Positions 21,709 through 37,008 of a DNA stretch of 48,605 nt are shown in pieces. The translations under genes were made by a program, and so were the position numbers. The first letter of the stretch is position 1, and each line of letters begins with the position of its first letter. The notes under the pieces are model-generated. The model was not told the origin of the DNA, searched no databases, and worked only from the letters and a program-made list of their open reading frames with translations. Source of the DNA: Promineifilum sp. (GTDB taxonomy: Bacteria > Chloroflexota > Anaerolineae > Promineifilales > Promineifilaceae); the NCBI GenBank assembly GCA_018058545.1, contig JAGOZU010000015.1, positions 1 to 48,605 of the forward strand. Direction: 5' to 3'.

Positions 21709-22416
21709 CTAACGGCGCAACGATTCTTGCAGAGCGCTCATCCGGTTGGCGACGCTGTCATCCACGACGCGGTCGCCCACGCGAATGACCAGCCCGCCCA
21801 GGATACCCGGATCCACCTTGTACTGGACGTCGCTGATTCCGAGCGTCTTGGCCGCGGCTTTCCGCTCAGCCTCGGTCAGCGGCAGCGCGCTGGTGATCTC
21901 GGCCGATTCGCCCTTCAGTTCCGACACACCGGCCGGGACCTGGCTGAAGAAGTTGTCGATGAGCTGGTGTTGCCGTTTCTCGTCCAGCGATTCGCCGACG
22001 AGCTTGTTGGCCGCGGCGATGGAGATGGCCGCAACCTGGCCACGCAGGTCGGCCAAAATGCGATTGCGCTCCTCGGTCGCTTCCGTCTGGGCAGTGGCCA
22101 TGATGGCGCGAGCATCTTCGCGAGCCTTGGCTTCCACATCCTTGGCTGCGCCCTCGGCAGCCACGACCGCCTCGCGGCGAAGGTTGGCGGCTTCGGCGCG
22201 CGCATCGTCAAGAATGCGCTTGGCGTCGGCGTCGGCGTTGGCGCGGGCGATCTCCGCCTGACGGGCGTCTTCCAGTCCCTTGGCGATACGCGCCTTCCGC
22301 TCGTCCAGCACGCGCAACATCGGCTTGTAGATGAACGCGGTCAGAATCAACATCAAGGCGCTGATACCCAGAATCTGCGCGATCAGGTAACCTAAATTAA
22401 TGCCTAATGCTTCCAT
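21709..22416 (-). CDS. atpF: ATP synthase b subunit fused to the C-terminal domain of delta
   Basis: A 235-residue peripheral-stalk protein. Residues 1-28 are the membrane anchor; about 30-165 form the long charged, Ala-rich coiled coil of subunit b (RAEAANLRREAVVAAEGAAK), ending in LDEKRQHQLIDNFF. Residues about 175-235 match the C-terminal domain of delta/OSCP: AEITSALPLTEAERKAA, then VDPGILGGLVIRVGDRVVDD and a closing LQESLRR. The six-helix N-terminal domain of delta, which binds the alpha subunits, is absent. Mycobacteria have a b-delta fusion, but with a full delta. A GAGGATAA site precedes the ATG. The next gene on this strand is not atpA but, past a terminator, a phospholipid synthase. 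Confidence 0.88.
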   Translation of the reverse strand: MEALGINLGYLIAQILGISALMLILTAFIYKPMLRVLDERKARIAKGLEDARQAEIARANADADAKRILDDARAEAANLRREAVVAAEGAAKDVEAKAREDARAIMATAQTEATEERNRILADLRGQVAAISIAAANKLVGESLDEKRQHQLIDNFFSQVPAGVSELKGESAEITSALPLTEAERKAAAKTLGISDVQYKVDPGILGGLVIRVGDRVVDDSVANRMSALQESLRR

Positions 22417-24311: not shown

Positions 24312-25805
24312 TTAACCGGAGAAAAAGGCTGCGGCTGCTTGTCGGGTCAGCTCAAAGGCCGAATTGGCGCTGACGCCGAGATAGATAATGATGATCGACG
24401 AGATAGCCAGGCCGAGCTTGGCGGCGCGCGAGACGGGAATGGCTACGTCATCCTCTTCCGAATTGTACAGATACATGTACTTGATGACCGACAGGTAGTA
24501 GTAGAGGCCCACGAAAGCGTTGAGAATGGCGATGAGAGCCAGCCACCACAGCCCCACGTCGATTGCCGCCTTGAAGATGAAGAACTTGCCGAAAAAGCCG
24601 GCCGTGGGCGGGATGCCGCTGAGGGACAGGAGGGCCACCAGCATGATCAGCGCCAGGAACGGCGAGCGGCGATTGAGGCCGTAGAAGTCCTTCATATCGT
24701 CGGATTTGGTCGCGTTGCTGACGATGACGATGACGCCGAAGGCGGCGATGTTGGTGAAGATGTACATCAGCAAGTAGAACATCGTCGCGCCGGAACCATC
24801 CTGCGACAGGGAGACGAGGCCGACCAGAGCGTAACCGGCCTGGGCGATGCTGGAATAGGCCAGCATGCGCTTGAGGTTGTTCTGGAAGATGGCGACGAAG
24901 TTGCCAAAGGTCATGGTGATGATGCTCATCGCCACCAGCATGGCCCACCACTCGGCCGTCGACTGGGCCGGGCCAAGCACCCCGGCCATGAAGACGCGCA
25001 GGAAGACGGCGAATCCCGCCGCTTTGGAGGCGGTGGACAGGAAGCCGGTGAAAGGCGTCGGCGAGCCTTCGTACACGTCGGGCGTCCAGAAGTGATAGGG
25101 GACGAGCGACGTCTTGAACGCGAAGCCCACGGTGACCATCACCGCCGCCAGCAGCAACAGGGGTTGAACAGCGGCGATTTGCTGCCCGCTGAACAGGTTG
25201 CCGATGACATAGATATTGGTCTGGCCGGTGATGCCATAGATCAGGCTCATGCCGTAGAGCATGACGGCCGTGGTGAACGCGCCATAGATGAAATACTTCA
25301 TGCCCGCTTCGGACGAGCGCGTCTCGCCGCTGTAGAACCCGGCCAACAGATAGGACGAGATGCTGGCCGTCTCCAGGGCGACGTAGATCATGATCAGGTC
25401 GGCCGAGGCAGCCATGAGGCTGAAGCCGATCGTGGCCGTGATGAGCAGCGCGTAGTATTCGAGTTTTTGCAGCCGCGGCACGTCCATCGACAGCAATGCC
25501 GTCAGAGCCAGGGCGGAGAAGAACATGAGGCGGAAGACAAGCGTCACCAGGTCGTGACGCATCATGCCGCCCCAGATGACGCTCTCGCCCAGCCCCAGGG
25601 CAGCGTTGGGCTGGTCGAACAGCCAATAGAGGACGACGGTCAGCAGCAGCACCGCCACCGCACCCCAGGCCGTGAACATGCCGAGTTGGCGCCGGTTCGC
25701 CGGCTTGAACAGGCGCTCGTAGATCAGCACCGTGAACAGGATGACCAACAGGCCGATCTCCGGCGCGAGGGCCAATACCCACGAAAGGGTAATATTGGGA
25801 CTCAC
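24312..25805 (-). CDS. nuoN: NADH-quinone oxidoreductase subunit N
   Basis: A 497-residue antiporter-like subunit of the complex I membrane arm, with about 14 helices. The TMH5 Glu is in IMIYVALETASISSYL, the TMH7 Lys in FAFKTSLVPYHFWTPDVYEG and the TMH8 Lys in LSTASKAAGF, all present, so a working proton channel is expected. GTG start, preceded by GGGAGGTG; it begins directly after the TAA of the upstream nuoM paralogue. It is the last gene of the complex I operon, followed at once by the atp promoter. Confidence 0.93.
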   Translation of the reverse strand: MSPNITLSWVLALAPEIGLLVILFTVLIYERLFKPANRRQLGMFTAWGAVAVLLLTVVLYWLFDQPNAALGLGESVIWGGMMRHDLVTLVFRLMFFSALALTALLSMDVPRLQKLEYYALLITATIGFSLMAASADLIMIYVALETASISSYLLAGFYSGETRSSEAGMKYFIYGAFTTAVMLYGMSLIYGITGQTNIYVIGNLFSGQQIAAVQPLLLLAAVMVTVGFAFKTSLVPYHFWTPDVYEGSPTPFTGFLSTASKAAGFAVFLRVFMAGVLGPAQSTAEWWAMLVAMSIITMTFGNFVAIFQNNLKRMLAYSSIAQAGYALVGLVSLSQDGSGATMFYLLMYIFTNIAAFGVIVIVSNATKSDDMKDFYGLNRRSPFLALIMLVALLSLSGIPPTAGFFGKFFIFKAAIDVGLWWLALIAILNAFVGLYYYLSVIKYMYLYNSEEDDVAIPVSRAAKLGLAISSIIIIYLGVSANSAFELTRQAAAAFFSG

Positions 25806-27479
25806 TTATGCACCTCCCAGCCTGCTGAGGCCGGCCACCAGCCGGCCGACGTTGGCTGCGACGATTTCGATTACATGTTGCACGGCCGTGGCGGAGCCAC
25901 CGTGGAATTGAGCCGCTTGCTGGGCTTCCTGCAGGCGGCCGACCACCGGTTCAACCCCCGATTCAACGATGGGGGCGATGACCGCCGGAACCAGGCCGAT
26001 GACGACCAGGATGACACAGAAAGAGACCAGAACCACCTTGTCGATGGCCAGCAGCGGCCGCATATCGTGCCACTTGTCGCCATCGTATTCGCCAAAGAAC
26101 ACGGCATGGATGGCGCGCAGGATGTAGGCCGCGGTGATGATGATGCCCAGGGCCGACAGAATGGCCGCCCAGGCGTAGAAGTTCGACGGATTCAGGCCGA
26201 ACGCGGCCGTCAGGTCGAGGGCGCGCCCTTCCCAGACTCCCAGAAAGATGGGAAACTCGGCCAAAAAGCCCGACAGACCCGGCATGCCCATGCCCACGAG
26301 ACCGGCAATGATGAACGCCACGACCGTCCAGGGCAGAGCCTGGCGCATGCCGCTGAGTTCATCCATGTTGCGGGTGTGGGCGCGGTCGTAGACCATGCCG
26401 ACGACGGCGAAGAAGAGAGCCGTCATGATGCCGTGGCTGACCATCTGGATGCCCGCGCCGGTGTAGCCGAGAAGCATCATGGAGGCGAAGCCCATCGAGA
26501 CAAGCCCCATATGGCTGACGCTGGAGTAGCCGATCATGTACTTGAGGTCTTTCTGCCTCATGGCGACGAACGCGCCGTAGATGACATTGACCAAGGTCAG
26601 TAGTAGAACGAAGGGCAGCCAGTAGACCGCGCCTTCGGGCAAAATCTGAATGCCGACGCGCATCGAGGCGTAGGCGCCCAGCTTCATCAGAACCCCGGCG
26701 TGGATCATGGAAACGGCCGTGGGCGCTGCCACGTGGCCGTCGGGCGACCAGTTGTGGAAGGGCCACAGGCCGGCCAACACGCCAAACCCGATGAAGAGCG
26801 GCATGAACCAGATGCGCTGAATCTCCCAGGGGAAGGTGGCCTCGGACCAGACGCGCAGGTCGAACGTCCGCAGCGCCTCACCGCCCTCGACCGGCGTGAA
26901 GTAAAGCACCAGGAAGGCGATCAGCGAGATGAAGCTGCCGATGAGCAGATAGAGGGTCAGCTTCATGGCGGCGTATTCGCGGCGTTCCTTCCAGCCCCAG
27001 ACGACGATCATGACGTACATGGGCAGCACGGCCAGCTCGTAGAAAAAGAAGAGCAGGAAGCCGTCGACGGCGACAAAGACGCCGTGGACGCCGGCCACCA
27101 GCAGCATGAAGAAGGCGTAGAACTCGCGCGGCCGATCTTCGATGCTCCAGGATATCAGGACGCCACCCAGGCCGACGATGGACGTCAGCAGCACCAGCGT
27201 GGCGCTGAGGCCGTCGACGCCGACGATATAGTTCAGCCCGATGCTGGGCACCCAGGGATGCTCCTCAACGAACCGAAGCGTATCGCGCCAGGCTGTGCCG
27301 GCGGGTGGCAAGCTTTGATACGTTGCCACATAGACATAGATCGACAGCACCAGGCCCAGGACCATGGCCGCCAGCCCCAACATTCGCGCATTTTCTCCGC
27401 GTTCTTTGGGCAACATCAGGATGATGAGCGCGAAGGCGATGGGCGACAGGGCGATGATTGACAGATACGGGAATTCCAT
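25806..27479 (-). CDS. nuoM: NuoM paralogue 2, lacking the conserved TMH7 lysine
   Basis: A 557-residue antiporter-like subunit, about 40 residues longer than its neighbour. It keeps the TMH5 Glu (E148 in FFFYELAVLPMY), the TMH8 Lys (K266 in GVLMKLGAY) and the TMH12 Glu (SGFLAEFPIF). At the position of the essential TMH7 Lys it reads GFGVLAGLWPFHNWSPDGH, with Leu235 where the other NuoM has Lys236 in FAIKIPIWPFHTWLPDAH. No other lysine lies in that helix. The last ~60 residues are an extra amphipathic tail. It may be a pump with altered coupling or a structural spacer; both NuoM copies are intact and in the same operon, so neither looks like a pseudogene. Confidence 0.88.
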   Translation of the reverse strand: MEFPYLSIIALSPIAFALIILMLPKERGENARMLGLAAMVLGLVLSIYVYVATYQSLPPAGTAWRDTLRFVEEHPWVPSIGLNYIVGVDGLSATLVLLTSIVGLGGVLISWSIEDRPREFYAFFMLLVAGVHGVFVAVDGFLLFFFYELAVLPMYVMIVVWGWKERREYAAMKLTLYLLIGSFISLIAFLVLYFTPVEGGEALRTFDLRVWSEATFPWEIQRIWFMPLFIGFGVLAGLWPFHNWSPDGHVAAPTAVSMIHAGVLMKLGAYASMRVGIQILPEGAVYWLPFVLLLTLVNVIYGAFVAMRQKDLKYMIGYSSVSHMGLVSMGFASMMLLGYTGAGIQMVSHGIMTALFFAVVGMVYDRAHTRNMDELSGMRQALPWTVVAFIIAGLVGMGMPGLSGFLAEFPIFLGVWEGRALDLTAAFGLNPSNFYAWAAILSALGIIITAAYILRAIHAVFFGEYDGDKWHDMRPLLAIDKVVLVSFCVILVVIGLVPAVIAPIVESGVEPVVGRLQEAQQAAQFHGGSATAVQHVIEIVAANVGRLVAGLSRLGGA

Positions 27480-27518
27480 AGCTTTATTCCGGTTCCAGTA
27501 GTGGGCGTACTCGTCCCG

Positions 27519-29063
27519 CTAACTGAAAAGTTTGGTTATCGTGTCATTGATCACAGCCAGAATCAGCTGTGGCCACACGCCCAAAGCGAGCATGAGGGCC
27601 ATCAGCGGCCAGATAACGAGATGTTCGCGGAACGTCATCTCCGTCAGTCCGGCCCATTGGGGCTTCATCGGCCCATGCAGAACCTCGCCGATAGCCTTGA
27701 GGATATAGGCGCCGGTCATGAGCAGGCCGATCATCGAGAGAGCCAGTTGGACTGTGAAGACGTTCCATGCGCCACGCACCACCAGATATTCGCTCACAAA
27801 GCCGTTGAGGCCGGGCAATCCCAGCGACGCGAAACTGGTGAAGATTAAAATCGCTCCGTAGATGGGCATCACCGTCCAGATGCCGCCATATTGCTTCAGG
27901 TCACGGGTATGGGTGCGGCCGTAGATGACACCGACCAGGAAGAACATGCCCGCCGAAGAAAGGCCGTGGTTGAACATCTGCAGGACTGCGCCGTTGGTAG
28001 CGATGATGGCGTCGTAGTTCAGTCCGGCGGAGTTACCCTGGCGGCCGTAGGCATAAGCCATGACAGCCAGCCCCAGCACGACGAAACCCATATGGTTGAC
28101 GGATGAGTAGGCCACCAGCCGCTTGAAGTCCCACTGGCCGAAGGCGGCATACGCGCCCAGGACGATGCTGAGCATGCCGAGGGTGGCCAGGATTCCGGCC
28201 GTGGCCATGGCCTGAGCCGGGAACAGCGGGATGACGAGACGGATGAAGCCGTAAGCGCCCAGCTTGAGCAGCACGCCCGCCAGGAGCATCGAGCCACCCG
28301 TGGGGGCCTGGGTGTGGGCGTCGGGCAACCAGGTGTGGAAGGGCCAAATGGGAATCTTGATGGCGAAGGCGATGAGGAAGGCCCAGAAGGCGATCCCCTT
28401 GGCCAAATCGACGGATATGCCGAGCCGCGGCAGCATCCCGCCCGCGGGCAGATTGACCCAGGTGGTCATCAGCTCCACGATGTCGAACGTGCCCGTCGAA
28501 ATGCCGATCACCTGAATGGACAGGAGAAGGCCCAGGCTGCCGGCCATGGTGTAAATGATGAACTTGAACGAGGCATATTCGCGGTCCTTGCCGCCCCACA
28601 ACTTGATCAGGAAGTACATGGGCACCAGGCCGAACTCCCAGAAGATGAAGAAGATGATCAGGTCAAGCGAGGCGAACAGACCGAGCATGGACGCTTCCAT
28701 CAGCAGGAAGAGAAACATGAGGGTGCGCACGTTGTCTTCGATCTCGAAGGAGACCAGAATGGCCGCCGGGGTCAGGATGACCGTCAGCAGCAGCATCGAC
28801 AGACTGATGCCGTCCACGCCGATGTGGAAGCTGGAGCCGATCGCCGGAAACCAGGGGATGATGGTCTCGTACTGGATCCCGGGGTGCACGCGGTCATAGT
28901 TGAACCACATGATGAGCACCAGCGCCAGCGGAATGAGGCTGAAGATGAAGGCCAGCCGGCGAATGGTTAGCTTCGCGTCATCAGGCATGACGAACAGGAT
29001 GAGCGACGCGACCAACGGGAAAAGGATGGTCAGTATCAGAAGGTTATTGAGAATTGCGTCCAT
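27519..29063 (-). CDS. nuoM: NADH-quinone oxidoreductase subunit M (canonical copy)
   Basis: A 514-residue antiporter-like subunit with the full set of channel residues: E143 in FIFWEFGLVPMY, K236 in FAIKIPIWPFHTWLPDAH, Lys in GVLLKLGAYG and Glu in GFVSEYLVVRG. Length is normal for NuoM. It lies between nuoL and the second nuoM, with 39 and 33 bp spacers. It is the copy expected to pump protons in the usual way. Confidence 0.94.
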   Translation of the reverse strand: MDAILNNLLILTILFPLVASLILFVMPDDAKLTIRRLAFIFSLIPLALVLIMWFNYDRVHPGIQYETIIPWFPAIGSSFHIGVDGISLSMLLLTVILTPAAILVSFEIEDNVRTLMFLFLLMEASMLGLFASLDLIIFFIFWEFGLVPMYFLIKLWGGKDREYASFKFIIYTMAGSLGLLLSIQVIGISTGTFDIVELMTTWVNLPAGGMLPRLGISVDLAKGIAFWAFLIAFAIKIPIWPFHTWLPDAHTQAPTGGSMLLAGVLLKLGAYGFIRLVIPLFPAQAMATAGILATLGMLSIVLGAYAAFGQWDFKRLVAYSSVNHMGFVVLGLAVMAYAYGRQGNSAGLNYDAIIATNGAVLQMFNHGLSSAGMFFLVGVIYGRTHTRDLKQYGGIWTVMPIYGAILIFTSFASLGLPGLNGFVSEYLVVRGAWNVFTVQLALSMIGLLMTGAYILKAIGEVLHGPMKPQWAGLTEMTFREHLVIWPLMALMLALGVWPQLILAVINDTITKLFS

Positions 29064-29096
29064 AATCTAGTCGCCGATTCGGAATGGGGCGGGCCA

Positions 29097-31358
29097 TTAG
29101 AATATACTGGCCAACCATCCGCTGTTGATCAACAGGATAACAACCGCCAGCGCAGTGGCGATGAAAACCGATATCAGGGCGTATTCCTGCACCTTGCCGG
29201 TCTGCAGGAACCGGAACTCCTTGGCGAGGGAGAGGGTTTGATCCTTCACCCAGTCCACGCCGCCGCTGATGACCGTCTCCTCGAAGCGTTTCAGGTAGCC
29301 GCCGATCTTGTAGAAGGTGCGGGCCACCAGATGCAGGGTGCCATCGATGATGCCCTTGTCGATGAATTCATAGGCCACGCGCTCCGAGAACCAGACGGTC
29401 GGCTTGATGAAGACGCGATCATAGAGTTCATCCCATCCCCATTTGTTGCGCAGAAAGCCATGGATGGGGCCGAGGGTCTTGACCATCGGGTCTTCCTGCC
29501 CGGTTTGCAGCGGCCGTTTGACGTAGACCAGCCAGCCGAGCACCAGACCACCCAGCGCCACGACGAGCGACGTGATGAGCGGAACCCATGACCAGGGCAG
29601 CGATTCCAGTGTGTGCCCCACCAGGCCCAGCGCGTACAACTCTTCGATGAGATGATGATATTGCGCTGCGGCATAGTGATGGAAGAAGTTATAGAAGATA
29701 TTGTTCGTGCCCAGAAAGCGATCGGAGATGCCAGACCAGCCCGCGCCGACGGCAAAGATGGCCAGGATGACGAGCGGGAAGGTCATGAAGGGCGAGCTTT
29801 CTTCGGCATGTTCGGCCAGCGCGGTGCGCGGCTTGCCCAGGAAGGTCAGGCCTATCTGGCGCATGGTGTAGAATGCCGTCAGAAATGCGGCCAGAGCCAG
29901 CGTGACGAACACCACCAGGGCCAGCATCTTCTGGTCATGCGACCACTGGAACCAGGCGTCGGCGAAGATCTCGTCTTTCGACCAGAACCCGGCGGTGAGG
30001 AACGGGAACCCGGCCAGCGACAGGCCGCCGATCAGGAAGGTCCAGAAGGTGATGGGCATTTTGGAGCGCAACCCGCCCATATTGCGCATGTCTTGCGGGT
30101 CGAGATGATGGTCGTGGGCGTGGATCGCCCCGTGCTCCATGCCGTGGATGACCGATCCGGACGCCAGGAAGAGCAGCGCCTTGAAGAAGGCGTGGGTAAT
30201 CAGATGAAAGGCCGCGGCGACGTAAGCCCCCAGGCCGATGGCCGCGACCATGAAGCCCAACTGGGAGATGGTCGAATAGGCCAGGACAGCCTTGACATCA
30301 TATTGAGCCACAGCGATGGTGGCGGCCATGATGGCGGTGAACGCGCCGATCCCGGCGATGACCAGGCCGGTCCACGCCGTCCCCTCGATACTGACGGCGA
30401 TCATGGGGAAGATACGCAGGAGCATAAAGATGCCGGCGGAAACCATGGCGGCGGCATGGATGACGGCGCTGACGGGCGTCGGACCTTCCATCGCGTCGGG
30501 CAACCAGACATGCAGCGGCCATTGGGCCGATTTGCCGACGGTTCCGGTGAAGAGCATCAGGGTCATGATACCCAAGCCGCTGAAGCCGATCAGATGGATG
30601 ACGCGCTCGAAGTTCTCGGGCGTGAAGGCGTCGTTGAAGTTGAGCGTGCCGAAGGCCCACCACATAAAGACGATGCCCAGCAGCATGACGACGTCGGCCA
30701 CGCGCGTGGCCATGAAGGCTTTAATGGCCGCCTTGCGCGGCGGTATGCGCGGGATGGGCATGTCGGCCGGATCGGGATACTGGCGAGCATACCAGAAACC
30801 GATGAGCGAGTATGAGCAGAAGCCCATCAACTCCCAGCCGATGAATAACAGCAGCAGGTTGTCGGCCACGACGAGCAGTAGCATGGAACCGCCGAAGAGG
30901 CACATATAGGCGAAGAAACGGGCCAACAGCGGGTCTTCGGTCATGTCATGCTGTGGCTCGCCCTTGTGCATGCCCAGGCCATGCCCCCAGTTATGGTAGC
31001 CGACGCTGTAGATGAAGATCATCGTGACCGCCAGCGAAACCATCAACAGCATGATGGCGTCCAGCGGATCGATCGCGACACCTATCCGGAACCATTGGCC
31101 CTGGAAGAAGTCGCCCAGCGGCAACCAGTCAACGCCGCTGGAAATCTGGACGGGATGAGTATCCAGCTCATGGACGCCGCGCGTCAGGACATTGATGGCC
31201 ACGGTCCAGCTCATGATCAGCGAACTGATTATGGCCACCCAGGCCAGCATCCAGCTCAGCGTCCGGTTACGGTGGACGAAGAGGGCGATGAGAAAGAAGG
31301 CCAGAATCGGCATCGCCGGAATCAGCCAGGTCATTGTTTGGAGTGTCTGCTCGTTCAT
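29097..31358 (-). CDS. nuoL: NADH-quinone oxidoreductase subunit L with lengthened lateral-helix region
   Basis: A 753-residue distal antiporter-like subunit (E. coli NuoL is 613). Channel residues are present: Glu in LLLFIGWELMGFCSYSL and Lys in GTVGKSAQWPLHVWLPDAM. After the core, KWGWDELYDRVF leads into the lateral helix that braces the membrane arm. Here that region has an extra stretch of about 25-30 residues (roughly 680-712, YLKRFEETVISGGVDW and KDQTLSLAKEF) before the usual FLQTGKVQEYA and final anchor helix. A longer lateral helix would help span an additional NuoM subunit, and a second nuoM does lie in the operon. Confidence 0.93.
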   Translation of the reverse strand: MNEQTLQTMTWLIPAMPILAFFLIALFVHRNRTLSWMLAWVAIISSLIMSWTVAINVLTRGVHELDTHPVQISSGVDWLPLGDFFQGQWFRIGVAIDPLDAIMLLMVSLAVTMIFIYSVGYHNWGHGLGMHKGEPQHDMTEDPLLARFFAYMCLFGGSMLLLVVADNLLLLFIGWELMGFCSYSLIGFWYARQYPDPADMPIPRIPPRKAAIKAFMATRVADVVMLLGIVFMWWAFGTLNFNDAFTPENFERVIHLIGFSGLGIMTLMLFTGTVGKSAQWPLHVWLPDAMEGPTPVSAVIHAAAMVSAGIFMLLRIFPMIAVSIEGTAWTGLVIAGIGAFTAIMAATIAVAQYDVKAVLAYSTISQLGFMVAAIGLGAYVAAAFHLITHAFFKALLFLASGSVIHGMEHGAIHAHDHHLDPQDMRNMGGLRSKMPITFWTFLIGGLSLAGFPFLTAGFWSKDEIFADAWFQWSHDQKMLALVVFVTLALAAFLTAFYTMRQIGLTFLGKPRTALAEHAEESSPFMTFPLVILAIFAVGAGWSGISDRFLGTNNIFYNFFHHYAAAQYHHLIEELYALGLVGHTLESLPWSWVPLITSLVVALGGLVLGWLVYVKRPLQTGQEDPMVKTLGPIHGFLRNKWGWDELYDRVFIKPTVWFSERVAYEFIDKGIIDGTLHLVARTFYKIGGYLKRFEETVISGGVDWVKDQTLSLAKEFRFLQTGKVQEYALISVFIATALAVVILLINSGWLASIF

Positions 31359-31430: not shown

Positions 31431-31739
31431 TCAGTTCTTCAACAAATCCAGTTCGTCAGCGTTAATCGATTCACGATTGCGATAGACAGAGATAATCAGG
31501 GCCAGACCGGCGGCCGCCTCGGCCGCGGCCACGGTCAGGACGAAGATGGCCCAGACCAGACCCACCGAGCGATCCGGCGTCAGATAGCGCCAGAAGGCGA
31601 TCAGGTTTATGTTGACGGCATTGAGCATCAGTTCAATGCCCATCAGGATGACGATGGCGTTGCGACGAGCCAGCACACCGAACAAGCCGATGGAGAACAG
31701 CGCCGCGCTCAACAGCAGATACCAGGATAAGGGAATCAC
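31431..31739 (-). CDS. nuoK: NADH-quinone oxidoreductase subunit K
   Basis: A 102-residue subunit with three helices. The two conserved membrane glutamates of the E-channel/first pump are present: Glu in [18 protein letters not shown] and Glu in [14 protein letters not shown]. The GTG start overlaps the nuoJ stop by four bases (GTGA), giving translational coupling. Confidence 0.95.
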
Positions 31740-32287
31740 AGGTTGTCCTCCTCGCCGCTGCGCGGCCAGGCGATAATGATGGAACCGACGAGCGCCGCCA
31801 ACAGCAGCACCGAAGCGACCTCAAATGGCAACACGTAGGCGTCGGCGCTGACAAAAGCGCGACCGAGACGGGCGACGCTGCTTTCCATGACGGCCGGATC
31901 AACCTGCTGCGTGGAGCTAAGCAGCGAGTCGGCGCCGGGAACCAGCGGGTAGAGCCGCGAGATGACGACAAACAGGATAGCCATGGTGATGAGCGTGGCG
32001 ACGAGAGCGGCGATCGCCTGCGCATTATAGGGTGATTCCTGCGTCTGCATCATGCGGCGAGTCATCATGACGGCAAAGATGATCAGGATGGAGATAGCCC
32101 CGATATAGACCAGAAGCTGGGCCATTCCCAAAAAGCCCGCCTCCAACAGGATGTATATTCCGGCCACACCCAGAAAAGAAGCCATCAGGGCCAGCGCCGC
32201 GTGAAACAGGTTGCGCAGCGTGACCACGGCGATGGCCGAGGTCAGGATGATGGCGGTCAGGATAAAAAAGATGATCTGCTGGCTCAT
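31736..32287 (-). CDS. nuoJ: NADH-quinone oxidoreductase subunit J
   Basis: A 183-residue membrane subunit with five helices. It has the conserved third helix with Tyr in [20 protein letters not shown], the pi-bulge region that helps couple quinone chemistry to pumping. The C-terminal helix ([16 protein letters not shown]) is complete. It lies 22 bp after nuoH. Confidence 0.93.
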
Positions 32288-32309: not shown

Positions 32310-33665
32310 TCAGTGAATCGGCACCGTGATTGGCTCGCGGCCGCCAAGGGGCATATCCCCATGATCGGTCTGGACCGGCTCGCCGTGGCCCGAAGGAACG
32401 TGGCCTGCCGGACCATGGCCGGCGGGCGCATGATCGCCATGACCGGCCGAGGGCGGCGATGCGGCTCCGCTATTGGCAGTCGTCTTGTTCCGTTGGCCGT
32501 AGCGCCGCAGCGCCTCCAGCGTGGCAAAGCCCAGGCCCAGGTTGACGGCCAGATGAATGGCCATACGCATGAATTGGCCCGTGCCCTCGGGGATGAGTTT
32601 GTCCACGATGGCCACCAGGAAGATGAGCACCAGCGACAGCGGCACCAGGAATTTCCAGTTGTAGTCGAGGAGCTGGTCGACACGAATGCGGGGCAATGTG
32701 CCACGCACCCAGACGAAGACAAAATAGAGGATGAAAGTCTTGGTGAAGAAAGCTGTCAGCCCGATGAGGCGGCCGAAGGGATAGCCGCCCGCGCTGACCC
32801 AATTCTCCAGCCCAAAGAACCGATAGCCGCCCAGATAGAGCGTGACAAACAGGGCGGACATGAACAGCGTGCCCAGGAATTCGGCCAGGAAGAACATGCC
32901 GAACTTCATGCCGCTATATTCAATATGAAAGCCGGCGACGATCTCGGATTCAGCCTCAAGCAGGTCAAACGGCGTGCGTCCCGTCTCCGCCAGGGCCGAG
33001 ATGTAGAAGATCAGAGCCGATAGGGGCGCGTAGAGCAGGAACGGAATCGCCTGGGCATCGATGATACCCTTGGTCGACATCGTGCGAGCCAGGATGACCG
33101 GCACCAGCAGGGCCAGGAGCATGGGCACTTCGTAGCTGACCATCTGGGCGACGGCGCGAAAGGCGCCCAGCAGAGCGTATTTGTTGTTGGACCCCCAGCC
33201 GGCCAGCAAGAGCACCACGACCGAGAGCGAGCTGATGGCCATGATATAGAAGACACCGATGTTCAGGTCAACGCCGATGACGCCGGGGGCGAAGGGGATG
33301 ACGGCCCACACCAGCAAGGCGGCGATGACGGTCAGAAGTGGCGCAAGGTTGAAGGGAACCCAGTCGACGCCCGCGGGGTTGATCACTTCCTTGGAGAGCA
33401 GCTTGAGGACGTCGGCCACCGTCTGCAACAAGCCGTAGCGGCCGCCCACCCGATTGGGGCCGATGCGGTCCTGCATGCGGGCGATGAGCTTGCGCTCCAG
33501 CCAGATAAGGAAGATGACGATGAGCAAGCAGAAGGTGGAGAGCGCCACCACCGAGAGGATATCGATAAAAAGCTCCATCCCCGGGCCGGAGCCGAACGTC
33601 CGGCGCAAGTAATCGCCGAAACTCAGGGACAGAAGACTCCATAACAGGTCGAGAATGTTATTCAT
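32310..33665 (-). CDS. nuoH: NADH-quinone oxidoreductase subunit H with His/Gly-rich C-terminal tail
   Basis: A 451-residue subunit that forms the quinone-chamber end of the membrane arm; family members are usually 320-430 residues. The conserved charged loops are ERKLIARMQDRIGPNRVGG, AETGRTPFDLLEAESEIVAG and EYSGMKFGMFFLAEF. Residues about 393-451 are an added low-complexity tail with seven histidines (motif units AGHG and DHG), which the family does not need. It could bind metal or be a flexible spacer. The gene follows nuoA after a 93-bp gap that contains a large hairpin and none of the B, C, D or I genes that usually lie between A and H. Confidence 0.93.
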   Translation of the reverse strand: MNNILDLLWSLLSLSFGDYLRRTFGSGPGMELFIDILSVVALSTFCLLIVIFLIWLERKLIARMQDRIGPNRVGGRYGLLQTVADVLKLLSKEVINPAGVDWVPFNLAPLLTVIAALLVWAVIPFAPGVIGVDLNIGVFYIMAISSLSVVVLLLAGWGSNNKYALLGAFRAVAQMVSYEVPMLLALLVPVILARTMSTKGIIDAQAIPFLLYAPLSALIFYISALAETGRTPFDLLEAESEIVAGFHIEYSGMKFGMFFLAEFLGTLFMSALFVTLYLGGYRFFGLENWVSAGGYPFGRLIGLTAFFTKTFILYFVFVWVRGTLPRIRVDQLLDYNWKFLVPLSLVLIFLVAIVDKLIPEGTGQFMRMAIHLAVNLGLGFATLEALRRYGQRNKTTANSGAASPPSAGHGDHAPAGHGPAGHVPSGHGEPVQTDHGDMPLGGREPITVPIH

Positions 33666-33758: not shown

Positions 33759-34115
33759 CTATACCCACTCCAGAACCCCGCGGCTCCAGGCATAAATCAG
33801 GCCGTCAGCCAACAGGAAGATGAACAACACCGCCGCGCCGATGGCGAACAAGTCCAGCTGACCATAGGCTACGGCGATCGGAAAGAGAAATACGGCTTCG
33901 ATATCGAAGATTACGAAGACAAGGGCGTAGATATAGTACTGGACCTTGAACTGAATCCAGGTATCGCCCACGGTCTCGATTCCGCATTCGTAGGTCTGTT
34001 GCTTCACGGGATTCGGCCGATGCGGGCCGAGCAACCGGTTCAGCACCACAGGGGCCAAAGGAAAGATGGGCGAGAGCGCCACAAAGATACCGATGTATTG
34101 CCAGTCAGACAGCAC
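33759..34115 (-). CDS. nuoA: NADH-quinone oxidoreductase subunit A
   Basis: A 118-residue subunit with three helices. The loop YECGIETVGDTWIQFKVQYY carries the conserved Cys used in active/deactive studies, and FVIFDIEAVFLFP carries the conserved acidic pair. The GTG start is preceded by GAGGAA at seven bases. It is the first gene of the operon, with a promoter 50-77 bp upstream. Confidence 0.94.
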   Translation of the reverse strand: MLSDWQYIGIFVALSPIFPLAPVVLNRLLGPHRPNPVKQQTYECGIETVGDTWIQFKVQYYIYALVFVIFDIEAVFLFPIAVAYGQLDLFAIGAAVLFIFLLADGLIYAWSRGVLEWV

Positions 34116-34400: not shown

Positions 34401-35111
34401 ATGCTGGAATCACCACCTGAAACGCAACGCATTCTGGTCGTTGATGACAACGCCTATACCCTGCGCATCGTGCAGCACACGCTCGACCAGGCGGGATATG
34501 CCGTATCGACGGCCATCTCGGGCGCGGAGGGATTGACCCTCATCAATCGCTACGGCCTGCCTCACCTGGCCATCGTCGATCTCCACATGCCGGAAATGAG
34601 CGGCTTTGAGTTTTGCCGCCTTGTCCACGAGTTTAGCGACGTGCCGATCATCATGCTGACGGCCGCCAGCGCCGAGGAAACGGTCATCGAAGGGCTGGAA
34701 GAGTACGCCGAAGATTACATGATCAAGCCTTTCAATCCGCCGGAGCTGATCGCGCGCGTGCGGCGTGTGTTGGCCCGCATGGAAGATTACACCTACACGC
34801 TGGACGCGACGACGCGCATCGATGATCGGCTCACGCTCAACTTCCCCATGCGCGAGGCGACGGTTGACGGCCAGACCGTTTCGCTGACGCCGATAGAGGC
34901 GAAACTCCTCTACATCCTGGTGCGAAACGGGGGGCGAATTGTGACGACCGAATTCTTGCTGAAACGCATCTGGCCGATGGAAGATGCGCGAGAGGACAGG
35001 CTGCACGTCCACATCCACCGCTTACGCGGCAAGATCGAGCGCGACCCCAACGAACCCTTTTATATCCTCGCCGAGCGAGGTCTGGGCTATACCTTCCAAA
35101 GCCTGACGTGA
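34401..35111 (+). CDS. OmpR/PhoB-type response regulator (orphan)
   Basis: A 236-residue two-component regulator. The receiver domain (about 8-122) has the acidic pair in ILVVDDNAYT, the phosphorylation Asp in LAIVDLHMPEMSGFEF, Thr in IIMLTAAS and Lys in YMIKPFNPPEL. The C-terminal winged helix (about 140-235) has LTPIEAKLLYILVRNGG, the recognition-helix segment DRLHVHIHRLRGKIE and the wing ERGLGYTF. No histidine kinase is adjacent. The ATG at 34401 is chosen because MLESPPETQRILVVDD is a normal short lead-in; the frame is open for 17 more codons. It is divergent from nuoA, with 285 bp between them holding the nuo promoter. Confidence 0.92.
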   Translation: MLESPPETQRILVVDDNAYTLRIVQHTLDQAGYAVSTAISGAEGLTLINRYGLPHLAIVDLHMPEMSGFEFCRLVHEFSDVPIIMLTAASAEETVIEGLEEYAEDYMIKPFNPPELIARVRRVLARMEDYTYTLDATTRIDDRLTLNFPMREATVDGQTVSLTPIEAKLLYILVRNGGRIVTTEFLLKRIWPMEDAREDRLHVHIHRLRGKIERDPNEPFYILAERGLGYTFQSLT

Positions 35112-35126
35112 ATATGAAAGCTCCCT

Positions 35127-35804
35127 TTAGGCAATCGGATCGCCTGCTGGAGCCGTCAGGGGCGTGAAACCAAATGATTCGACAATAATCTCAACATTCT
35201 GCCCGTCGGAAGGAGGCGCGCCTTTGTTTAACCACAGATTGATTCGCGCATTGCCGTTCCCTTCCTTCGGTACATCTGAGGCTGTGAAGGCGTGCGCGTG
35301 GATGATACTGCCGGCGTCAGTCCTTCGGCCGCGATAGCTGGTGAACAACACGCGATCAGGCGACCATAAGAAACGATGCGTCGATAATACCTCCGGGAGC
35401 ATGGTGAAGCAATGTGGATTCCCCGGGAACTTCCGCCTCGTCTGAACCACATATTGGGCATTGTCGTTTGATGCATTGCTCCATTTGGAAAACTCTATGT
35501 CAATCTCCCGGTAGCTTTCATTCGGCGCATCCGGGTCCCACGTAAATAACCCCAGCACGACATTTGGGTCCAGTTGGTCGACCAGGCTGCCCAGTGTAAA
35601 GGTATAAGCGCCATATCCAAGAGCCGTCTCAGTAACGATCTCGCTAGCATACCAGCGACCGTTTCGAAACCGGATCATCAGGTGCAGACGACCGAAAATG
35701 TCTACCCACACATCATCGATCTGGTCCGAGAAGTAGTTCGGCCCCGGCCCAACAGGTTCGTCGCTTTTTTTCACATGCCACGAATAACCGGAGAAAGCGA
35801 TCAT
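35127..35804 (-). CDS. Glycoside hydrolase family 16-like protein without signal peptide
   Basis: A 225-residue protein with a concanavalin-like beta-sandwich pattern. It contains YREIDIEFSKW, which matches the ExDxE(F) active-site motif of GH16 beta-glucanases, and opens with FSGYSWHVKKS, typical of the first strand of that fold. No signal peptide or membrane segment is visible, which is odd for an enzyme of extracellular polysaccharides; it may use non-classical export or act inside. Base composition is lower in GC than the neighbours, suggesting more recent acquisition. The ATG lies 1 bp from the TGA of the upstream flavoprotein gene, so the two are coupled. Confidence 0.72.
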   Translation of the reverse strand: MIAFSGYSWHVKKSDEPVGPGPNYFSDQIDDVWVDIFGRLHLMIRFRNGRWYASEIVTETALGYGAYTFTLGSLVDQLDPNVVLGLFTWDPDAPNESYREIDIEFSKWSNASNDNAQYVVQTRRKFPGNPHCFTMLPEVLSTHRFLWSPDRVLFTSYRGRRTDAGSIIHAHAFTASDVPKEGNGNARINLWLNKGAPPSDGQNVEIIVESFGFTPLTAPAGDPIA

Positions 35805-35805
35805 G

Positions 35806-37008
35806 TCACGAGTGGGATACGATATCCGTCAGCCGGAACTCCGGCTCGCGGATGGGCACGTGATTCGGGTCGCTCCACGACGTGAAGCGCATCACCAGCC
35901 GCATAACCCGCCAACCCAGGCCGGCCAGCCACGGCCGATTAAGCCAATAGGCATAACGCGCCAGTCGCACCCGCCGGTCGAGTTGCCGAAACAGCGGGTG
36001 CGCCGACAACCGCTCGCGGTAGGAGTCAAGGCTGAAATCGTCGCGCGCAAAGGCGTCGATGATGGTCGCCGACGCCGGATCGCCGTAGCCCAGCGCGAAA
36101 GAGATGCCTTCGCCCATCAGCGGATCGGCTCCGGCGGCGTCGCCCACCAGCAGCACGCGCGGTCGGGCGAACTTGCCCCGCGCGTTCCACCAATGAATGG
36201 GGTGCCCCTTCAATTCGTAGTCGTCGAGCTGACGGCCGCGCTCGGCCAACTCCCCGGCCAGAATCTCTTTCAGATCGGCCTTGGGCTTTTCCGGTCGGGC
36301 GCGACTATCGAAGACGCCCCGGTTCATATAGGCCTTGCCTTTGACAAAGCTGGGGAAGTCCCAATAATACCCTTGCAGGCCGTCGTCCATCGGCGTGAAG
36401 TCGAACACGGCCACGCCGTCGCGGAACTCCGGTGTTGTGTTCGGGTCTTCCGGCGTCAGCACCTCGATTAGCCGGGCCACGTGGGGATCATTGACGCCGG
36501 GGTCTTCATCAGCCCACTTCAGCTTGCGACGCACGTAGCTGCGCGAGCCGTCGGCGGCAACAACCACTTTGGCATGGAAGGTCGCCAACTCCGTCACGAC
36601 CTCGACGTGATCGTCGTGGGGCGTGATCTCCTTGACCGCCTCCCCCTGCCGCACGCGAACGCCCAGCTTCTCGGCCGTCTTCACCAGCCAATGATCGAAC
36701 TCGTCGCGCCGCACGATGGTAAACACCGGGTCACTGAAGAAGGAATAGCTCTGGTCATGATAGACGAGACGGGCTTCGGTCACATCGAAATGGCGTGGTT
36801 CCAGCGTCAGCCCCAGGTCGGACAGCACATTCCGCCCCAAATGGGTGATGCCGCCGCCACACAACTTCTCGCGCGGGTGGACGGCCTTATCGACGATGAC
36901 GATGCGTTCCGCCCAGGACGGATCATGCTTAATCAGGTGTAGCGCCGTCGACGTGCCCGATGGGCCTGAGCCGACGATCAACACATCAATAGTTTCAACT
37001 TCAGACAT
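35806..37008 (-). CDS. Geranylgeranyl-reductase-family FAD-dependent oxidoreductase
   Basis: A 400-residue flavoprotein. The N-terminal DVLIVGSGPSGTSTALHL is the FAD-binding Rossmann motif, REKLCGGGITHLG is the PCGG-like substrate/FAD loop of the family, and VLLVGDAAGADPLMGEGISF is the second FAD motif with the GEGI hallmark of geranylgeranyl reductases. Such enzymes saturate isoprenoid chains of quinones, chlorophylls or lipids; a menaquinone side chain is one possible target here. The last ~60 residues are basic and amphipathic, perhaps a membrane-contact tail. The promoter region has two palindromes. Confidence 0.85.
   Translation of the reverse strand: MSEVETIDVLIVGSGPSGTSTALHLIKHDPSWAERIVIVDKAVHPREKLCGGGITHLGRNVLSDLGLTLEPRHFDVTEARLVYHDQSYSFFSDPVFTIVRRDEFDHWLVKTAEKLGVRVRQGEAVKEITPHDDHVEVVTELATFHAKVVVAADGSRSYVRRKLKWADEDPGVNDPHVARLIEVLTPEDPNTTPEFRDGVAVFDFTPMDDGLQGYYWDFPSFVKGKAYMNRGVFDSRARPEKPKADLKEILAGELAERGRQLDDYELKGHPIHWWNARGKFARPRVLLVGDAAGADPLMGEGISFALGYGDPASATIIDAFARDDFSLDSYRERLSAHPLFRQLDRRVRLARYAYWLNRPWLAGLGWRVMRLVMRFTSWSDPNHVPIREPEFRLTDIVSHS

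Follow-up and report, generated by a model that had tools for sequence, protein, structure and literature searches.

A probable two-NuoM complex I operon of Promineifilum (Chloroflexota) with a lengthened NuoL lateral helix and a second NuoM that has no TM7 lysine

Results

Two different nuoM genes lie between nuoL and nuoN

We analysed a 48,605-nucleotide stretch of DNA from Promineifilum sp. (phylum Chloroflexota; assembly GCA_018058545.1, contig JAGOZU010000015.1), hereafter called the window, which corresponds to contig C51 in an assembly of 3.6 Mb and carries an operon for the membrane arm of complex I. On the minus strand the genes follow the order nuoA-H-J-K-L-M1-M2-N, and none of nuoBCDEFGI adjoins them. 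The four open reading frames (ORFs) running from 31358 to 24312 are intact and match NuoL, NuoM, NuoM and NuoN above the NCBIfam cut-off. Two complete nuoM genes thus adjoin nuoL and nuoN in one operon, the arrangement expected of the two-NuoM (2M) class, and since their products share only 32.6% identity in an alignment of 481 positions, M1 and M2 are different genes. An initial annotation of this DNA had described two different, intact NuoM genes after a NuoL of 753 residues, and the ORFs, profiles and identity bear this out.

29097..31358, minus strand: nuoL, 753 aa, distal antiporter-like subunit with a lengthened lateral helix (ORF; NCBIfam NDH_I_L, PRK06590)
27519..29063, minus strand: nuoM1, 514 aa, canonical NuoM (NCBIfam NDH_I_M; key residues)
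25806..27479, minus strand: nuoM2, 557 aa, member of the NuoM lineage without the lysine of transmembrane helix 7 (TM7) (NCBIfam NDH_I_M; AlphaFold2 model; tree)
24312..25805, minus strand: nuoN, 497 aa, GTG start directly after the M2 stop (ORF; NCBIfam NDH_I_N)

The closest relatives of the window NuoL are 80-85% identical to it and come from metagenome-assembled genomes (MAGs) of Promineifilum, Ardenticatenia and Anaerolineae.

The NuoL lateral helix is longer where a second NuoM is present

The lateral helix of NuoL straps the antiporter-like subunits together (PMC9802314). We expressed its length as the number of residues from the D of the DELY motif to the Q of the QTG motif (643 to 719 in the window protein). 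This spacing is 76 in the window NuoL and 45 in that of E. coli K-12. A phylum-wide survey gave 48-49 in all 23 Chloroflexota operons with one NuoM gene (one-M operons) and 73-77 in all 15 two-M operons in which it was measurable, and further two-M relatives found through NuoL gave 74-79. The window helix is therefore longer by 27-28 residues than that of one-M Chloroflexota and by 31 than that of E. coli, and it carries an insertion relative to one-M NuoL of the size expected of the 2M class (about 26-30 residues). The initial annotation had estimated roughly 25-30 extra residues and had placed them at about 680-712, whereas the alignment puts them at about 664-691; the outcome that it had named as counting against itself, a NuoL with no insertion relative to one-NuoM relatives, was not what we observed (76 against 48-49 residues). 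The window NuoL also keeps TM5 Glu176, TM7 Lys276 and TM12 Lys461.

29286..29369, minus strand: lateral-helix insertion, NuoL ~664-691, 28 residues, placed to within plus or minus one 27-residue unit (alignment to one-M NuoL)
29214..29435, minus strand: predicted lateral helix, NuoL 642-715 (AlphaFold2 model mf1f4d4bf3b64)

AlphaFold2 modelled NuoL residues 642-715 as a single helix, with a predicted local distance difference test score (pLDDT) of ~60-74 that drops under 60 beyond residue 700. Self-similarity within 79 NuoL sequences is highest at an offset of 27 residues (mean score 18.1, compared with 6.5-10.6 elsewhere), which points to an extension that may have arisen by tandem duplication of 27 residues and become worn in the window protein (taken alone, the window helix shows no significant self-duplication, with p ~0.10, while the helices of L048 and L042 do). 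Because the extension resembles such a duplication, the position of the insertion is ambiguous by one unit.

In a NuoL tree calculated after removal of the helix region, all two-M NuoL proteins fall into one clade with 96% support (the trees reported here come from quick searches, with support from the Shimodaira-Hasegawa-like approximate likelihood ratio test only). As the two-M NuoL are monophyletic, the association of helix length with a second NuoM amounts to one evolutionary event in the phylum. The data support the view that helix length tracks the number of M genes across the phylum, with exceptions of two kinds. The first is a single clade of operons from Anaerolineales MAGs (L031, L041, L046, L049 and L084), which have nuoL-M1-N only and have kept the long helix; their assemblies, which are partial, showed no other gene of the M2 type, and the operons look like cases of M2 loss without helix shortening. 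The second consists of two one-M NuoL proteins, that of contig C144 in the same genome as the window (L090:7409-9622) and that of G007 (L126:1048-3201), which carry a different insert of ~30 residues at the same place, with an FWHD-type motif and a total spacing of ~78, counted by hand. Because of these exceptions, a long helix was rejected as sufficient evidence for two NuoM: some one-M complexes have a long helix, so that length by itself is no proof of four antiporter-like subunits, and any refutation based on the insertion needs the same care.

M2 has leucine at the position of the TM7 lysine

In structure reviews, a TM7 lysine paired with a TM5 glutamate is a feature of all antiporter-like subunits, and mutagenesis of the Paracoccus ND4 is cited for the pair being essential for catalysis in ND4/NuoM (PMC9802314, PMC10212512). 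Aligned to E. coli NuoM, M1 has the full set of residues (Glu143, Lys236 in TM7, Lys267, His324 and Glu425). M2 retains the canonical TM5 Glu148, TM8 Lys266 and TM12 Glu408 together with His323, but the lysine that would pair with the TM5 glutamate (E. coli K234) is replaced by Leu235. The AlphaFold2 model of M2 matches solved NuoM and NdhD structures.

26775..26777, minus strand: M2 codon Leu235 (TTG), at the TM7 lysine position (E. coli NuoM K234)
26700..26702, minus strand: M2 codon His260, in TM8, typical of the lineage without the TM7 lysine (Lys-less lineage)

Among relatives of the window the TM7 residue is leucine in 61/61 M2 and lysine in 75/75 M1 proteins; in a wider sample of 400 genomes M2 again has leucine, or threonine in one family, and M1 always lysine. 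Nearly all M2 proteins keep the TM5 glutamate, TM8 lysine, TM12 glutamate and both central histidines. The TM8 histidine is present in 59 of 65 members of the Lys-less lineage, including all 17 that are the sole NuoM of their operon; the exceptions are families f5 (L160, L161 and L205, with TM7 leucine) and f10 (L162, L163 and L199, with TM7 threonine). A literature search, which did not cover Chadwick et al. 2018, found no published NuoM without the TM7 lysine.

Some variation was also seen around the TM8 lysine. The f5 proteins have a glutamate two residues before it, f3 proteins (L200 and L201) have alanine in its place and the M2 proteins of L165, L173 and L203 have asparagine there; some M2 proteins are therefore without two of the key charged residues.

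The Lys-less NuoM is a separate lineage

NuoM proteins of the M2 kind also occur by themselves. In about a dozen other Chloroflexota families, 17 one-M operons (L175-L191) have a Lys-less NuoM and no other. The same holds for the one-M operons of two Bacteroidota, Bacteroides finegoldii and Prevotella nigrescens, whose sole NuoM has the TM8 histidine and no TM7 lysine; the NuoL lateral-helix spacing of B. finegoldii, hand-counted from the sequence, is 49.

L206:3372-4856 and L207:3324-4835: Lys-less NuoM of Bacteroidota (plasmid-labelled records)

In the NuoM tree, M2 and the sole Lys-less NuoM of Chloroflexota and Bacteroidota form one clade with 100% support, with a single residue change, and M1 forms a separate clade (97-98%). 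The Chloroflexota 2M genes make up single clades in both the M1 and the M2 tree, and the NuoL tree agrees. Given that the sole Lys-less NuoM of other Chloroflexota and of Bacteroidota share its supported clade, M2 represents an old, separate NuoM lineage. A recent origin of M2 as a copy of M1 was ruled out by the 32.6% identity and the separate clades. The sole NuoM with a TM7 lysine (K-type) of further families does not join M1 (approximately unbiased (AU) test, p 0.016), and its candidacy as an M1 orthologue was rejected on that test. In the NuoL tree the two one-M types fall together (96-97%), a grouping at odds with the NuoM tree (AU p 0.036).

Genomic context and the candidate peripheral partner

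Complex I genes also lie on other contigs of the assembly. Contig C121 encodes NuoB, a 607-aa fused NuoCD and an Fe-S NuoI-like protein, that is, a nuoBCDI set separate from the membrane-arm operon and with nuoCD fused, as in the Chloroflexota 2M arrangement. The same arrangement has been published for 2M complexes of Chloroflexi (PMC7117926), and the C121 cluster probably supplies the peripheral part that goes with the window operon. Contig C144 carries the A, B, C, D, F, G, H, J, K, L and M genes of a second complex, and the complex-I-type NuoF and NuoG found in the genome belong with it. Contig C162 has a lone nuoN, and contig C170 a shorter set of NuoB-, NuoD-, NuoH-, NuoL- and NuoN-like genes. 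Within the window, the other membrane-arm genes are as follows.

33759..34115, minus strand: nuoA (profile match)
32310..33665, minus strand: nuoH (profile match)
31736..32287, minus strand: nuoJ (profile match)
31431..31739, minus strand: nuoK (profile match)

Downstream of the operon lie ATP synthase a, c and b/delta-like genes, the last of which (21709-22416) encodes a 235-aa protein that matches subunit b over residues 11-140 and delta/OSCP over residues 99-233; adjoining the genes for subunits c and a, it is a possible short b-delta fusion. Upstream of nuoA, positions 35806-37008 encode a flavoprotein of the geranylgeranyl-reductase family with weak similarity to the menaquinone reductase MenJ, and the interval between the two holds two ORFs with no Pfam match (34410-35018, 202 aa; 35127-35804, 225 aa).

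Discussion

By gene content and helix length the window operon clearly reads as that of a 2M-type complex I with a lengthened bracing helix, as the initial annotation had supposed, and across the phylum that length follows the second NuoM. The accompanying suggestion that the class might be extended to a new phylum does not stand, because nuoL-M1-M2-N has already been described in Chloroflexi, together with a separate nuoBCDI and a fused nuoCD (PMC7117926), and a 2M operon is on record for Chloroflexus aggregans (PMC8004040); the literature already covers both the class and its occurrence in Chloroflexota.

We consider it very probable that the product of the operon is the membrane arm of a 2M complex I of the Chloroflexota type. 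Such an arm would hold four antiporter-like subunits instead of the usual three, arranged in gene order as A/H/J/K followed by N, M2, M1 and L. The amphipathic lateral helix of NuoL, longer by one module of 27-28 residues (~42 Å if helical), would reach past the extra subunit and strap the arm together, and the C121 nuoB-nuoCD-nuoI products would form a peripheral part without an NADH module of its own. M1 would be the canonical pump subunit, and M2 would join the lateral charge relay in a modified way, with leucine in TM7 and, usually, a new histidine in TM8. Several points weigh against this picture: the L031-type operons combine a long helix with M1 only, another insert occupies the corresponding position in the one-M NuoL of C144 and L126, the structural model has only moderate to low confidence over the lateral helix, and the co-assembly of both NuoM in one complex is deduced from gene content.

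How many protons such a complex would move is a separate matter, as five-proton pumping cannot be read from gene content. The Lys-less NuoM would either pump by a modified route or relay charge while M1 supplies the canonical site. The former alternative, in which M2 pumps like any antiporter-like subunit to give five H+ per two electrons, with the TM7 lysine functionally replaced by, for example, the TM8 histidine, is in our view possible though somewhat doubtful. It is the published proposal for 2M complexes, M2 keeps the other charged residues and both central histidines in nearly all members, the TM8 histidine is close to constant in the lineage, and in NuoL a TM8 histidine (H254) acts as a switch (PMC13358369). 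Set against this are the presence of the Glu-Lys pair in every antiporter-like subunit and its essential role in ND4/NuoM (PMC9802314, PMC10212512), and the two M2 families, f5 and f10, that have neither the TM7 lysine nor the TM8 histidine. The absence of the lysine weakens any inference of a further proton from M2.

The latter alternative, which we entertain with similar reserve, makes M2 a relay or spacer that adds no proton, so that L, M1 and N would be the three lysine-type sites and the total would stay at four. M2 is without the TM7 lysine everywhere sampled, and a Lys-less NuoM is evidently tolerated, because 17 Chloroflexota operons and two of Bacteroidota have no other NuoM; that the sole K-type NuoM does not join M1 fits M1 as the newcomer. 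Set against it is a disagreement between the trees over the order of gain, as the NuoL tree unites the one-M types and the NuoM tree does not. We know of no proton stoichiometry for any Lys-less complex, and this too counts against it. Finally, the Paracoccus enzyme stops working when the pair is lost and does not continue at a lower stoichiometry (PMC9802314).

We regard it as unlikely that the NuoL insertion is mere noise of one lineage and has nothing to do with the number of subunits. In Chloroflexota its association with a second NuoM comes down to one origin and one M2 loss without shortening, another insert occupies the same place in some one-M NuoL (C144, L126), and one-M NuoL proteins of Manganitrophaceae have an insert of the same kind (PMC9040806); yet a similar 26-residue insert accompanies an additional NuoM both in Nitrospira and in the Complex_I_3 of Manganitrophaceae (PMC9040806), and one-M sister groups are consistently without it. 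Least probable of all is that a three-subunit complex exists in two isoforms, one with M1 and the other with M2: each type does stand alone in related operons (M1 in the L031 clade, the Lys-less M in L175-L191), but both genes occur in order in nearly all 2M relatives, the lineage in which the lateral helix is longer.

Returning to the four-subunit arm, we tentatively propose, at somewhat less than even confidence, that the Chloroflexota 2M complex pairs two long-separated NuoM lineages, one of them Lys-less, that the accepted Lys-Glu switch is not the means by which its fourth subunit pumps, so that subunit count would not equal proton number, and that the complexes with a sole Lys-less NuoM in Bacteroidota and other Chloroflexota may be a natural case of a non-canonical middle pump. 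The five-proton idea for 2M complexes rests on subunit counting and has entered descriptions of the metabolism of nitrifiers and subsurface bacteria, whereas the second NuoM of every sampled Chloroflexota 2M operon is without a residue that mutagenesis has called essential. As natural variants, these proteins allow one to ask whether the switch between TM7 lysine and TM5 glutamate is obligatory for pumping by every antiporter-like subunit.

The cultured Chloroflexota 2M systems of Anaerolinea and Chloroflexus, as relayed from Chadwick et al. 2018 in later papers (PMC7117926, PMC8004040), share with the window the nuoL-M1-M2-N order and the two NuoM, and the Anaerolinea type also shares the separate nuoBCDI with fused nuoCD; within those accounts we found no feature that distinguishes the window, and a Lys-less M2 is common to all sampled relatives. 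The 2M complex of Nitrospira (PMC12342949, PMC9040806) likewise has two NuoM and a NuoL lateral-helix insert of similar length, but its NuoC and NuoD are said to be separate, unlike the fused NuoCD found here. Complex_I_3 of Ca. Manganitrophaceae shares the two NuoM and a 26-residue lateral-helix insert, and differs in having two MrpD-like subunits at the NuoL position, for five antiporter-like subunits in total (PMC9040806). The one-M Lys-less complexes (L175-L191, L206, L207) have a NuoM of the M2 lineage with TM7 leucine and TM8 histidine, but a single NuoM and a short lateral helix (spacing 49). With canonical complex I of E. coli, Paracoccus and Thermus the window system has the fold and the subunit families in common, whereas those enzymes have three antiporter-like subunits, each with its TM7 lysine, and, in E. 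coli, a lateral-helix spacing of 45.

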